Positions 29,765 to 44,328 of a DNA stretch of 64,000 bases are shown piece by piece (positions within the stretch are counted from its first letter, which is position 1; each line of letters starts with the position of its first letter). Source of the DNA: Lentisphaerota bacterium (lineage in GTDB: Bacteria; Verrucomicrobiota; Kiritimatiellia; JAAZAB01). The DNA is taken from positions 1-64,000 of the forward strand of contig JACPGM010000006.1 in assembly GCA_016188985.1 (NCBI GenBank). Reading direction: 5' to 3'. Below the pieces are notes generated by a model. The model saw nothing but the letters and a program-made list of their open reading frames with translations, made no database searches and had not been told where the DNA came from. The position numbers and the translations under genes were made by a program.

Positions 29765-29838
29765 TTTAGATCCAGAATTGACGATCCAGGGTTCGGTACT
29801 GGATGGCCTCGGCAATATGTTCGCTTTCGATTTGATCT
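29765..29838. repeat. 74-bp copy of the comM 3' end
   Basis: Identical by eye to 33865-33938 (tttagatccagaattgacgatcc...tcgatttgatct). Confidence 0.95.
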
Positions 29839-29946
29839 ATAACAGGATTGAAGGTCCTTATGAATATCAGCGCCATGTTTCAATAATATGGCAAAGTTAT
29901 TTGTTTGATTGCATACTCTCTGTATCCAACATGTTGGTGCATATTT

Positions 29947-32900
29947 TCATCGTTTGCCGTTCCAGGGGAACCTGTATTGGCTTTCACTATGCGACCAGAA
30001 ACCACTAAAACTGTTTAGGTCTGGTGAGAATTCCATGGATAAATTTCCACCACCAAATTGATCTTGCCATTTACAGACGACAGTTCTGTCGTTGAGCAAT
30101 CTGAACTCTGTGAGTTCGCCCTTGACCAATCCGTCTTGATCTCTGAATTCGTATGATCCTGTCAATGCAGTTCCATCTTGGCACAGAATTGTTTTTCCTG
30201 GACAAGATTGGATGCCACTAAATACGATGCTTGTGTAACTGCCGGCCAGGTCAAACAGCGATATGTTTGTTTGTGTTTGAACTGCATTGTTCTGATGATA
30301 ACGGACTTCGCTGGGTTCAGCGTCTTTTGACTTTATCAAGGCGTTTGTGCTTGCTTCAGGATTAAGATTCAAAATCCAAGTACCGACACTATTCGCAACG
30401 GCCAGTTTTTGACCGTTATCAAACGCATGCAATAAGGTAAAGTCATCGAATGAATGTCCTGAAGACGTTTTAATCGGGGGCAATAATTCTAGCGTGCCAT
30501 TGGAAAGTACACGGCTGAATGGCTTAACAAACCAAACGCTACCATGGATTATTATTTCAGGGCAGGCCCATTGTGCTATGCGACTGGTATAAACGGTGGA
30601 GCTATCTTCTTTAACGACGCCTAACTTTAAATCTTCCGGATCGATAGGGTATTGCAAGAAGCCAGCCTCTTTAGAATTCGCCCGTGCAGGATCACCAACG
30701 CCGAATTTACTGCCCGTCACTCGCGCTACCCGCGCAGTATCCGTGCGAAGGTCATACTCCAAGGACCAGTCACGTGTTATAATGAGGAAATGTTCCTCAT
30801 CTATAGGTTGAGTCCAGCTTTTCTGGCCCCACAGTCCGGGTATTTTTTTCATAACCTGAGTTTTAATATCCATTTGCCAAAGGCCGGAGGCTTCTACCAT
30901 GAAAACAATGCGCCCTCTGTTTGAATCGGGAATAATATAATCAATGTCAAATCGCGTGACTTTATCTAATGGTGTTTCACTTTGACGTCTACGATTGGTT
31001 GCGATTGTATTTATTTGGCGATTGCTTAAATCGCAGGCTATCAGGAAGGAGGTGTTATCGTCTTTTGCATCACCGGTGTTGGGAGATTGATTAAGGCCGA
31101 TATAAAGAACATTGCCGAGAATGCCAATAGAGTTGACCCATCGCGCCGGCAAACCGGTTTCTTCTGTAAGTCGCCATGGTGGACTTCCATCCAGCGGAAT
31201 AACCACAATTCCATTATTATGTGTGCCGATACAATAATAATTCGCATTAGCACAGGCAGAACTTATTGTTTTTAATTGCCAATTCCTTGGCATGGATCCA
31301 ATGATTTGTGGCGCACCGCCTGTTAAAGGGATTCGCATTACTTGAAGAAAGCGCTCGTTTTTTTGATCTGCAAGTGCAATTACATCTTTGCCAAGAATAA
31401 CGCAAGATATCAGACTGCCTTTACCGTCAAGATCGAGCAGAGCTGTTTCTTTATTCCATAATTTAACATTAGCGACTCTATTGGTTGCAAAAGGTGTAAA
31501 TTGCGTCAATTGACTTTGCAGAAATGAAGGGGGTGTCATGCTTTGTTGATTATAAAAATCGGTTGTCCTTATACAAAGATTATAAAGTTTGGAACCGAAC
31601 TTCGAGAGGTTTTCTTTTTGGAAACGAAACCGATAAAGAATGTCTTCAATAACATCATTCCGATCGAGCATGAATTGCCATAGTTCGATATAATAAGCAC
31701 CACAATGGTTTTCGTTAGCCGCGCGTATTAAGTCAAACCACGCGTAATATGCTCTTTTACGGCGTTGAAGGCCGGGTTCGTCTTCGCTATCTTCAGTAAT
31801 AAGCCGCTGTATAAGTTGCTGAATATCAATAATATGCCGCGCCGTAGATTCGTTTGGCTTTTTGGCAAGGTTTATTTCCTGGTGCAGTTGTCCAATCTTG
31901 GCATATATGCGCACAATAGATTCAGGGTGTTGCTGCATTGCGCTATAAAGCGATTGATTTGTATGTGGCAAAGCGATTAGTTCCCAAAGCACGCTGTTGC
32001 CAATTGTAGAAGCACAGGTGTTAATACATTGCATTGTATCGCCGGGGCTGGCAATAAAAGGGCCATCCAATTCGGTTCCTGGCAAAGGCGTGAGCGGGCC
32101 CCTGTCAAAGCCGCGGATTTTCAAAGCAGCCAGCCATTTCAAGCCCAAGGATTCTTGACGTTGAAGGCGCTCTTTTTGATCCGGATAAAAAAGCAGTAGC
32201 AAGTCTTTAATTCTGTTGCAAAACCGCCGCTCGGATAAATACCATGACAGAGTATTCATGGCAAAAGCATCCGTTGGCGCCATGGCAGCCCAGCGATCAA
32301 TAACAGCATCGGTATACTTCCGGCTGGTAAGAAAAAGTTCCTTCGTTTCCGGTGTCGGGCGGGGGTATTTGTGTTTACCCATAAATAACCGGGGACGCCA
32401 TAGATTATACAAACGCTCGTGGAATCCCCGCCACTCGATCATCAAGTGAGCGACAAAGGCGGCCGAATCGGTAATGTTCGTTGATTCAAGAGAATCAATC
32501 CTGGTTAGAATCGCTTCCTTTGCCAAACCAAGGCCTTCTTGATATTGAGTTTCATTGCGTGTCATTGAGTCATGAGTAAATAATTCCTGAGCCAATGCCA
32601 TCTGATATAAGACTCGCTTGATGACGAAATCCCGTGATGGGAATAACGCATAAGCTGCGTTAACTGCCGCAAGGGCCTCGGCAAATTGATTTTTATTAAA
32701 CAGATAGTCGGATTCTTTGCCAAAGCAAATTGCCTCCAACCGTTGGTCTATGACAGATTGAGGCGCCCGTTTGCCAAGAATTTCAATAATTTTAGTACCG
32801 AGTATCTGTGCCAGCTTTTCTGGATGCGCCGCGTCTGCTGACGCTATAAGATTAGTGATTATCGTGCCGCTAAAATTGCACAACGCTACATTAACGGTAA

Positions 32901-33654
32901 TACAATTCGTTCCGTTCTTCTGAAAATCGCTGGCCACGGTTATTGTTGACCCCAACAACTGCGCGGTAGCTTGACAAGGGGTCAACATGTTTTCCCTGTT
33001 GATTCTATCTAATAGCCGGCGCTCTAACACGCTGATTTCAGGGGATTGGATAAGATAGCGCTCCAGCAGGCGATTAATAGTCCGACAAAGAACACTTTGA
33101 TTCGGTGGCAGATCGATATTATGTTCGGGTAAAAAACAGACAGTTGATATTTGCTCTTTATATTTTAGCGCCACTCGCTTTTGTTGGGCTTCTCTTATGG
33201 ACTTTACCGTTAACTGAAGCTTTTGGTTGAAATCTTCAGGCAATGGAACATCTACCAGTCTTGCTCCCGTTGCAGCATCGAAAGCAATCAAGTCGTAAAT
33301 AAGATTATCAGCGGGATCAAATCCAAAGAACGCAAAGATATCAGCACGTAAAATAGTTCCCAGAGCAACTGCCTGAGACGGATCAATTGCTCCTTGAAGC
33401 ACTAGTTTCTGCTCCTGAAGAATACGCTCGATTTCTTGTCGTTCCACTAATTCGCAGCCACATGCGGTGAGTTGTATCGTGGCCATGTCCAGTAGCTTAT
33501 TGACGTTCTCGTTACCGAGGCTGCTAACTAAAGCAACACGGCCCGTTATCATGGTATAATGATTTGTTTCCATTAAAGGCAGAGAGGCGGCCAGCATGGT
33601 AGGGGGCGTAAACCATGTCATAACAGCGGATAAAAAAAATAATCGAATGATCAT
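29947..33654 (-). CDS. Large hypothetical exported protein with CsgG/FlgO-like N-terminal region
   Basis: Signal-like N-terminus; LGNENVNKLLDMATIQLTACGCELVERQEIERILQEQKLVLQG; visibly lower GC than neighbours. Confidence 0.6.
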   Translation of the reverse strand: MIIRLFFLSAVMTWFTPPTMLAASLPLMETNHYTMITGRVALVSSLGNENVNKLLDMATIQLTACGCELVERQEIERILQEQKLVLQGAIDPSQAVALGTILRADIFAFFGFDPADNLIYDLIAFDAATGARLVDVPLPEDFNQKLQLTVKSIREAQQKRVALKYKEQISTVCFLPEHNIDLPPNQSVLCRTINRLLERYLIQSPEISVLERRLLDRINRENMLTPCQATAQLLGSTITVASDFQKNGTNCITVNVALCNFSGTIITNLIASADAAHPEKLAQILGTKIIEILGKRAPQSVIDQRLEAICFGKESDYLFNKNQFAEALAAVNAAYALFPSRDFVIKRVLYQMALAQELFTHDSMTRNETQYQEGLGLAKEAILTRIDSLESTNITDSAAFVAHLMIEWRGFHERLYNLWRPRLFMGKHKYPRPTPETKELFLTSRKYTDAVIDRWAAMAPTDAFAMNTLSWYLSERRFCNRIKDLLLLFYPDQKERLQRQESLGLKWLAALKIRGFDRGPLTPLPGTELDGPFIASPGDTMQCINTCASTIGNSVLWELIALPHTNQSLYSAMQQHPESIVRIYAKIGQLHQEINLAKKPNESTARHIIDIQQLIQRLITEDSEDEPGLQRRKRAYYAWFDLIRAANENHCGAYYIELWQFMLDRNDVIEDILYRFRFQKENLSKFGSKLYNLCIRTTDFYNQQSMTPPSFLQSQLTQFTPFATNRVANVKLWNKETALLDLDGKGSLISCVILGKDVIALADQKNERFLQVMRIPLTGGAPQIIGSMPRNWQLKTISSACANANYYCIGTHNNGIVVIPLDGSPPWRLTEETGLPARWVNSIGILGNVLYIGLNQSPNTGDAKDDNTSFLIACDLSNRQINTIATNRRRQSETPLDKVTRFDIDYIIPDSNRGRIVFMVEASGLWQMDIKTQVMKKIPGLWGQKSWTQPIDEEHFLIITRDWSLEYDLRTDTARVARVTGSKFGVGDPARANSKEAGFLQYPIDPEDLKLGVVKEDSSTVYTSRIAQWACPEIIIHGSVWFVKPFSRVLSNGTLELLPPIKTSSGHSFDDFTLLHAFDNGQKLAVANSVGTWILNLNPEASTNALIKSKDAEPSEVRYHQNNAVQTQTNISLFDLAGSYTSIVFSGIQSCPGKTILCQDGTALTGSYEFRDQDGLVKGELTEFRLLNDRTVVCKWQDQFGGGNLSMEFSPDLNSFSGFWSHSESQYRFPWNGKR

Positions 33655-33735
33655 CTTTAAAATTTACAAAGGGCGAATTACAAGCCCGATTTTGTTGTAT
33701 TTTAACGTGGTTTCAGTTCCAGATGTCTTATGTCG

Positions 33736-33864
33736 ATTCCGCTGAAAAAGTCGGCGGACGACACGGAGGTCGTCCCTCCATTGGTCAATTCAGGCCGGTT
33801 ATTGCGATTTTTGGAGGGTCGGGATCCGTCCCGACCGTTTGTAAATGGACTTTTTCAGCGGAAT
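33736..33864. mobile_element. MITE-like element with 17-bp perfect terminal inverted repeats
   Basis: attccgctgaaaaagtc (33736-33752) / gactttttcagcggaat (33848-33864). Confidence 0.8.
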
Positions 33865-33938
33865 TTTAGATCCAGAATTGACGATCCAGGGTTCGGTACT
33901 GGATGGCCTCGGCAATATGTTCGCTTTCGATTTGATCT
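33865..33938. repeat. 74-bp direct repeat (native comM 3' end)
   Basis: Identical by eye to 29765-29838. Confidence 0.95.
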
Positions 33939-35401
33939 TTTCCGGCCAAATCCGCGCTCGTCCGGGCCACTTTCAAGATGCGGTCGTAGGCCCGGGCGCT
34001 GAAGTTGAGCTCGGTAATCGCCATTTTCAACTGGGCTTGCGCATCGGGCTTGAGCTGGCAATGCTCCTTGAGTTCCTTGGCGCGCATGGCCGCGTTGCAG
34101 CGCACCTTGCGCAAGCCCTTGAACCGTTCCTGTTGAATGTGGTGGGCCGCCCGCACGCGCTCGCGGATAACAGCCGAAGACTCGCCCGTGCCGAGCGCGG
34201 CCAATTCCTGGTATTTCACCGACGGCACTTCGATGTGGATATCAATCCGGTCCAGCAGCGGCCCGGAAATCTTGTTGCGGTAGTTCTGAATCTGGAGCGG
34301 CGTGCAGCGGCAGTTATGTTTGGCGTCGCCGTAATACCCGCAAGGGCAGGGGTTCATTGCCGCTACCAGCATGAACTCGCAGGGAAACGTCAGGCTGGCC
34401 GAAGCGCGGGAAATCGTGACGGCGCCGTCTTCCAGGGGCTGGCGCAGAACCTCCAGCACGTTGCGGTGAAACTCGGGGAGTTCATCCATGAAGAGCACGC
34501 CGCGGTGGGCCAGGCTGACCTCGCCCGGCATCGGGTGCGACCCGCCGCCCAGGAGCCCGGCGTCGGAAACGGTATGATGGGGCGAACGGAACGGGCGCCG
34601 GGTAACCAGGGCCTGGCGCGGCGGCAAAGTGCCGGTAATGCTGTGGATTTTGGTCGTCTCCAGGGATTCTTCCAACGACATGAGCGGCAGAATGGAAGGC
34701 ACGCGCCTGGCCAGCATGGTCTTGCCCGTGCCGGGTGGACCAATCATCAGCAGGTTATGTCCACCGGCCACGGCCACTTCAATTGCCCGCTTGGCGTGTT
34801 CCTGGCCCTTGACCTCGGCGAAGTCCTCTTCATAGGCCAAGTGGGCTTCGAAAACCTTGGCGGCATCCACGCGATAGGGCTTAACTGCCAGACGGCCGGC
34901 GACGATTTCAGCAGCCTCGCGCAGGTTGTGAACTGGATAAACATCAATGCCTTCGGCCACAGCGGCCTCATCAGCATTATCATAAGGGACCAGAATGGCC
35001 GGACGTTTCTTTTCGCGCATGGCCATGGTAATGGGCAGAACTCCGCGCACGCGCCGCACCGCGCCGCTCAGGGCCAACTCGCCTACCAGGGCAAAACCGG
35101 CAAGCGCCTCCATCGGGATATCGCCCATCGTGGCCAGGACGCCCAGGGCGATCGGCAGGTCAAAGATCGGGCCTTCCTTCTTGATATCGGCCGGCGCCAG
35201 ATTAATGGTCAGGCGGTCTTTGGGCATCTCGAAGCCCGAATTGAGAATGGCGGTATTGACGCGGTCCTTGCTTTCCTTGACCGCCGCATCCGGTAGGCCC
35301 ACGATTACGGTCTGCGGATCGCCCCGGCCGGTGTTGACTTCGATTTCAACGGCATAAGCCTCAACGCCATAAACCGCGCCGGAATGGACTTTGGCTAACA
35401 T
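33866..35401 (-). CDS. comM: YifB/ComM family Mg-chelatase-like AAA+ ATPase
   Basis: GAVYGVEAYAVEIEVNTGRGDPQTVIVGLPDAAVKES...GPPGTGKTMLARRVPSILP...GVLFMDELPEF. Confidence 0.97.
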   Translation of the reverse strand: MLAKVHSGAVYGVEAYAVEIEVNTGRGDPQTVIVGLPDAAVKESKDRVNTAILNSGFEMPKDRLTINLAPADIKKEGPIFDLPIALGVLATMGDIPMEALAGFALVGELALSGAVRRVRGVLPITMAMREKKRPAILVPYDNADEAAVAEGIDVYPVHNLREAAEIVAGRLAVKPYRVDAAKVFEAHLAYEEDFAEVKGQEHAKRAIEVAVAGGHNLLMIGPPGTGKTMLARRVPSILPLMSLEESLETTKIHSITGTLPPRQALVTRRPFRSPHHTVSDAGLLGGGSHPMPGEVSLAHRGVLFMDELPEFHRNVLEVLRQPLEDGAVTISRASASLTFPCEFMLVAAMNPCPCGYYGDAKHNCRCTPLQIQNYRNKISGPLLDRIDIHIEVPSVKYQELAALGTGESSAVIRERVRAAHHIQQERFKGLRKVRCNAAMRAKELKEHCQLKPDAQAQLKMAITELNFSARAYDRILKVARTSADLAGKDQIESEHIAEAIQYRTLDRQFWI

Positions 35402-35498: not shown

Positions 35499-35723
35499 TT
35501 ATGCGTATTCGAACACGGGCGCCGTCCGTTTGGGTTGCGGCTGGTGTTTCAAAAGTTGTTCAATATGCCGAATGGTCTCTGGGGTCAGGAGCGCATCCCC
35601 GCAATCCGAACAGACGTCGGCGGGAACATCCTCAATAACGATGACGGCTTTCTTGCGTTGAACCGTATGAACAATAAGGCGATGTTCATACTCGCCAGGG
35701 CAACCTTTAATTGTGCATTTCAT
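35499..35723 (-). CDS. YgiT-type zinc-finger (MqsA N-terminal-like) protein
   Basis: MKCTIKGCPGEYEHRLIVHTVQRKKAVIVIEDVPADVCSDCGDALLTPETIRHIEQLL. Confidence 0.85.
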   Translation of the reverse strand: MKCTIKGCPGEYEHRLIVHTVQRKKAVIVIEDVPADVCSDCGDALLTPETIRHIEQLLKHQPQPKRTAPVFEYA

Positions 35724-44196: not shown

Positions 44197-44280
44197 GTCA
44201 TCCCGAGCTTGTCGAGGGATCTCGCGCGCATGAATGAACCTTGAGATTCCTCGACTCCGCTTTGCTGCGCTCGGAATGAC
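44197..44280. repeat. GTCATCCCGAGC palindromic element (84 bp)
   Basis: gtcatcccgagcttgtcgagggatct...attcctcgactccgctttgctgcgctcggaatgac. Confidence 0.93.
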
Positions 44281-44295: not shown

Positions 44296-44328
44296 GTCAT
44301 CCCGAGCTTGTCGAGGGATCTCGCGCTG
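44296..44328. repeat. Half GTCATCCCGAGC element
   Basis: gtcatcccgagcttgtcgagggatctcgcgctg without opposite arm. Confidence 0.85.

Follow-up and report, generated by a model that had tools for sequence, protein, structure and literature searches.

Elements that integrate at the 3′ ends of genes, such as e14 in icd, have a classical layout with an exact repeat of the end of the target gene that runs just past its stop codon, whilst the AbaR-type islands of Acinetobacter are transposons that interrupt comM and are accompanied by a short target duplication. In Helicobacter pylori, insertion with long target duplication places a gene between direct copies of a long target stretch, and such inserts are often tied to restriction-modification genes, according to PMC1643837 (which cites Nobusato et al. 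2000). For the T6SS immunity arrays of Vibrio cholerae, displacement by homology-facilitated illegitimate recombination has been proposed (PMC5361080). A literature search for comM (yifB) as an integrase site returned nothing past the Acinetobacter islands. In this work we describe a comM locus at which, with moderate likelihood, genes have accreted repeatedly by way of homology to comM; in the case at hand the target duplication is exact and 74 bp long. Gene accretion of this kind is already known, and the use of comM as an anchor throughout a family would be the new part.

The window, i.e., the whole stretch of 64,000 nucleotides that was analysed, belongs to an 86% complete MAG (G000) of the class Kiritimatiellia, with a 3.09-Mb assembly in 173 contigs. 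It is compared below with relatives that include an independent MAG of a congener from Lake Pavin (JAPLSY01; G003). The features around its comM are the following.

29765..29838, minus strand: outer repeat copy, a detached comM 3′ end (stop codon, 70 nt of coding sequence and 1 nt), 100% identity
29839..29946, no strand: spacer on the left of the insert, for most of which G003 has no counterpart (similarity to G003 begins at 29920)
29947..33654, minus strand: cargo gene, 1235 aa, the sole ORF between the repeat copies
33655..33735, no strand: right spacer, from the cargo start to the inverted-repeat element (similarity to G003 stops at 33656)
33736..33864, no strand: inverted-repeat element of a dispersed family, 129 bp, between the cargo and the comM stop
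33865..33938, minus strand: inner repeat copy, the 3′ end of the intact comM
33866..35401, minus strand: comM, YifB family Mg-chelatase-like AAA ATPase, 511 aa, intact (TIGR00368 at 4.1e-190)

The direct repeat that the initial annotation had reported at 29765-29838 and 33865-33938 is exact at these coordinates: 74 nt, 100% identical, with a start-to-start spacing of 4100 nt, comprising the last 73 nt of comM and one base beyond its stop codon. The gene itself is intact beside the insert, in agreement with the claim that its stop codon was preserved at insertion. A third copy is absent across the G000 assembly, where the next best match covers 18 nt at 94%, and the layout is that of a long target duplication, with the insert between long direct copies (74 nt, 100%) of a target that is single-copy elsewhere. 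That such a layout was created by the assembly of this MAG is highly improbable. An incomplete genome in 173 contigs, together with a repeat length near common k-mer sizes, would invite this explanation, but the copies lie 4 kb apart within a 74.9-kb contig, independent genomes, some of them assembled into 5-10 contigs (G065, G153 and G160), have similar structures with diverged repeats, and in the independently assembled G003 an orthologous cargo adjoins comM.

As initially annotated, the space between the copies is mostly one large minus-strand gene (the 1235-aa ORF is the only one there), its GC is lower than that of its neighbours (about 43% in the insert, against 58-65% on both sides), and an integrase is absent, no recombinase ORF being present between the repeats. 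Normal codon usage would have pointed to a native gene, and the usage is deviant instead: the GC3 of the cargo is 0.417, against a mean of 0.698 ± 0.066 (sd), which is the second lowest among 229 genes, and its codon-usage distance is reached by only three of these 229. The protein has a signal-peptide-like start, an N-terminal CsgG-like domain (weak), a helical middle and a beta-rich C-terminal half. Pfam gives a weak CsgG match only, at residues 52-106, and the AlphaFold models are poor (mean pLDDT 49 and 41). The N-terminal part has weak TolB/LpoB/GNA1162-like structure matches from models of low confidence; these agree with the Pfam CsgG match but give only a hint. The cargo matched no known defence protein, no NCBIfam protein and no PDB sequence, and no relatives of it were found among viral contigs. 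At its right side, the 129-bp element, which the initial annotation had not noted, has arms of 17 nt that are 100% complementary (ATTCCGCTGAAAAAGTC), and the end of the element abuts the start of the repeat exactly; Rfam and tRNA searches at the junctions returned nothing. A transposon insertion was considered and rejected, given that the inverted-repeat element stands only at the right end and the duplication is of 74 nt, in place of terminal inverted repeats with a short duplication.

The G003 genome has an orthologue of the cargo with 82% identity, likewise downstream of comM and on the same strand. Between G000 and G003, dS is 0.35 for the cargo, 1.1 for comM and 0.9-1.1 for plausible other orthologues, in a comparison that set aside gene pairs whose dN/dS exceeded 1 as presumed antisense ORFs. 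Since the value for the cargo is far under those for comM and the other orthologues, the cargo has moved between lineages after the species split; it is horizontally acquired and is found at comM in both genomes. The initial annotation had proposed that the segment is foreign and entered at the comM 3′ end, and this gains support from the dS values, the codon usage and the position in G003. Its author would have abandoned the proposal had a relative carried the gene beside comM without the left repeat; G003, on the contrary, has diverged comM tails at the far end of its island.

In G003 the orthologue sits in a four-gene module (338, 346, 1254 and 1098 aa) directly after comM, of which the window keeps one gene. 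One may therefore suppose that the module reached comM only once, in an ancestor or donor, as it stands in G003, and that the window is a deletion derivative in which the 74-nt copy is a secondary duplication or the product of gene conversion; the dispersed repeat at the right junction of the window would agree with such a deletion. We regard this as quite unlikely, as simple vertical descent fails to explain a cargo dS one third of that of other genes, G002 and G004 are without the module at comM, and outside the insert the flanks of G000 have nothing in common with those of G003.

Additional pieces of comM occur in all six family members with enough sequence around the gene (G000, G001, G002, G003, G004 and G008); three others (G005, G007 and G009), where comM is at or near a contig end, were left out of this judgement. 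A genome-wide search for comM places them on the contigs of comM itself in G000, G002, G003 and G004 (the comM of G004 being split over two contigs that join within the gene), with others on small contigs of G001 and G008 that are unplaced. Matches to nt 658-698 of comM that fall on further contigs probably reflect the Walker A of a different ATPase. Under the same detection rule, nearby copies were found for only 8 of 453 control genes in the genomes of the family (Fisher test, p = 2e-10 for 6/6 and 2e-8 for 6/9). The excess is smaller outside the family, where such copies accompany 8 of the 78 comM loci and 7 of the 735 other genes (p = 2e-5). These species are not independent samples, two junctions of G003 and G004 being homologous and hence counted as shared events. 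On these counts, comM, which the initial annotation had called an integration hotspot in other bacteria, is a genuine hotspot in the lineage of G000. Viral contigs with comM also exist, with distant matches (42-67% protein identity), mostly at contig ends.

All these pieces are direct repeats, the 5′ ends lying upstream of the intact gene and the 3′ ends downstream, and internal pieces occur as well. Counted from the stop, the inner edges of the 3′ fragments fall at 29, 33, 55, 73, about 101 and about 520 nt; the 5′ fragments end at various points. This distribution bears on the arrangement first suggested for the window, where the two copies would be attL and attR. In a fuller form of that reading, the attP of a small integrative element would have carried the last 74 nt of comM, which would keep the gene whole, and its tyrosine or serine recombinase would act in trans or have been lost. 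Elements at gene 3′ ends classically show just such an identity, ending one base past the stop codon, and a second tyrosine recombinase (451 aa) is encoded on contig C80 of G000. However, the comM islands of the family have no recombinase inside or next to them, the only two Phage_integrase genes of the G000 assembly being on contigs C105 and C80, and relatives have numerous old displaced ends with no common element between them. In addition, a single site-specific recombinase predicts one core, whereas the pieces come from the 5′, middle and 3′ parts of comM with variable inner edges. The attL/attR reading, which thus finds no support in the family, is possible for the single insert of the window but is not favoured, and we consider it distinctly improbable. 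Like e14 in icd or the elements of the tRNA type, the locus has a direct repeat of the 3′ end of a gene up to its stop, with the gene left whole; unlike them, it has neither a recombinase nor a fixed core, and 5′ and internal fragments come in addition. The AbaR islands, to which the locus had also been likened, share with it comM as a target, but the comparison does not apply, since they are transposon insertions inside the gene, whilst in the window comM is intact and the repeat has 74 nt.

G004 has two tail junctions homologous to those of G003; in G004 an old tail follows about 50 nt after comM, whereas in G003 a module of ~10 kb, from comM to the first tail, lies between the corresponding sites. 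G004 would therefore be a natural near-empty site relative to G003, and this supports addition at comM. G002 is also without the module at comM, yet carries other displaced tails. The mirror image is seen in another family, where G103 has an exact 86-bp repeat of the comM 5′ end around a lower-GC insert of two genes.

Many of the fragments, most clearly the 3′ ones, are ends of divergent functional comM alleles, because they differ from the resident gene mainly at synonymous sites, as decayed copies would not. The first tail of G003 differs from its resident comM by 12 synonymous changes and one nonsynonymous, and the second by seven and none; in some internal pieces (G008 C218 and G001 C16) nonsynonymous changes are as frequent as synonymous ones. 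The displaced 3′ third of comM in G002 (524 nt) keeps an open frame, has an 11-aa insertion in common with the comM of G003, and is 85.9% identical to the latter against 80.7% to its own comM; similarly, a 5′ fragment of G008 is nearer to the alleles of genus g1 than to its own comM. In the window it is the resident gene that has such an end: over its last ~120 nt, comM matches that of congeners at 56-62% identity, as opposed to about 85% for the remainder of the gene, and that of G007, a member of another genus, at 76-78%, which makes this tail one of a foreign type. Taken together, the allele-type fragments and the foreign tail of G000 show that comM ends are exchanged between species along with the DNA that adjoins them. 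As both 74-nt copies have the same foreign-type sequence, the native tail is gone, and the outer copy is not the original one. This calls for at least two steps, with replacement of the tail preceding insertion of the cargo, or for a donor that already had both copies.

The accretion anchored in comM that we favour would proceed as follows. DNA of a related species would enter the cell carrying a piece of the donor comM at one edge, and this piece would pair with the resident comM as a homologous anchor, whilst the other edge would be joined without extended homology close by, often inside comM itself. The outcome would be one complete comM with new genes alongside; beyond the insert, a direct repeat would remain, made up of the old comM end or of a second one. 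Over successive rounds, older 3′ ends would be pushed outward downstream and older 5′ ends outward upstream, and the latest round in the window would have set the 1235-aa CsgG-like gene between comM and the 74-nt repeat of its tail. We infer how the DNA entered (by natural transformation or otherwise), that homology served for joining on one side, and in which order the tail was replaced and the cargo inserted. The name insertion with long target duplication would fit such a process, and so would homology-facilitated illegitimate recombination, for which a donor-type anchor is found both in the foreign tail of G000 and in the fragments of divergent alleles.

ComEC was found in all ten genomes tested, and the role of ComM in transformation is a suggestive candidate reason for the preference for comM. 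Besides the foreign-type sequence of both 74-nt copies and the nonsynonymous changes of some internal pieces, the following points count against the accretion: DprA, present in nine of the ten genomes tested, was not found in the 86% complete MAG G000; stretches of 74-100 nt with 80-90% identity would rarely undergo RecA-type pairing; and dispersed repeats (REP/MITE) stand at several fragment junctions, so that repeat-mediated recombination may contribute. It is also conceivable, if unlikely, that the comM ends serve as recombination sites of an undescribed kind of gene capture, in which comM-bounded cassettes circulate between species of the class and join the genome next to comM with no dedicated recombinase, possibly helped by the transformation machinery, of which ComM is itself a part.

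With insertion with long target duplication in H. pylori (PMC1643837), the window shares a gene between direct copies of a long target stretch. It differs in that a single target, comM, is used repeatedly across a family, in that the cargo is no recognisable restriction or toxin system, and in that many of the remnants are divergent functional alleles, which suggests that donor DNA brought the duplicated stretch along. The resemblance to the V. cholerae arrays (PMC5361080) and to Rhs orphan tips lies in the conserved anchor, the outward displacement of old ends and the accumulation of orphan fragments. In those systems, however, it is the 3′ part of the anchor gene itself that is diversified (effector/immunity), whereas every round would leave comM whole, with unrelated genes added on either side of it. 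If accretion at comM is real, a gene for the integration of transformed DNA is itself the preferred spot for the build-up of foreign genes across an entire bacterial family, and successive interspecies transfers can be read from the comM ends that stay behind. Hotspots could then arise at protein genes without an integrase, a conserved gene acting as anchor, and the locus would offer a concrete system for testing natural gene capture by single-sided homology.

The process is not confined to comM. On contig C64 of G000 (L157, 5380-6439), a PIN-domain toxin gene and a ribbon-helix-helix antitoxin-like gene are enclosed by two 94%-identical copies of the final ~160 nt of a pyruvate:ferredoxin oxidoreductase gene, which gives this genome another insertion with long target duplication.

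Several other arrangements were observed. In G065 and G145 (family f30; L261-L266), a dispersed repeat that ends in GATAACGAAATAATAGGACTGACACC includes 42-90 nt of the comM 3′ end, with copies in arrays after comM and at sites far off, one of them inside an IS110-type transposase gene, so that in f30 a captured comM tail seems to be spreading in repeat form. In the window, the sequence immediately inward of the outer comM tail (29839-29857, ATAACAGGATTGAAGG) resembles the end of the f30 repeat that flanks comM tails, GAAATAACAGGACTGA; the likeness may be chance or a common dispersed motif. Elsewhere in the window, a 31-nt exact repeat at a gene 3′ end (44197-44227 and 44296-44326, motif CATCCCGAGCTTGTCGAGGGATCTCGCGC) was rejected as a second 3′-end duplication, as it appears to be a dispersed repeat. 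On contig C211 of G004 (L102, 1655-1892 and 9469-9670), the comM pieces 536-673 and 663-847 stop at the Walker A codons and link the halves of a different sequence, of which a whole copy lies at 764-860, as if a circle with a comM piece had entered via about 10 bp of shared sequence. Upstream of comM, a small gene of the window (35499-35723) has a weak match to MqsA-type antitoxins, and in G001, G004 and G008 (L108, L102 and L107) the comM 5′ fragments have HEPN and zeta-toxin-like genes between or next to them, the HEPN gene having a nucleotidyltransferase partner in G008 and apparently also in G001.
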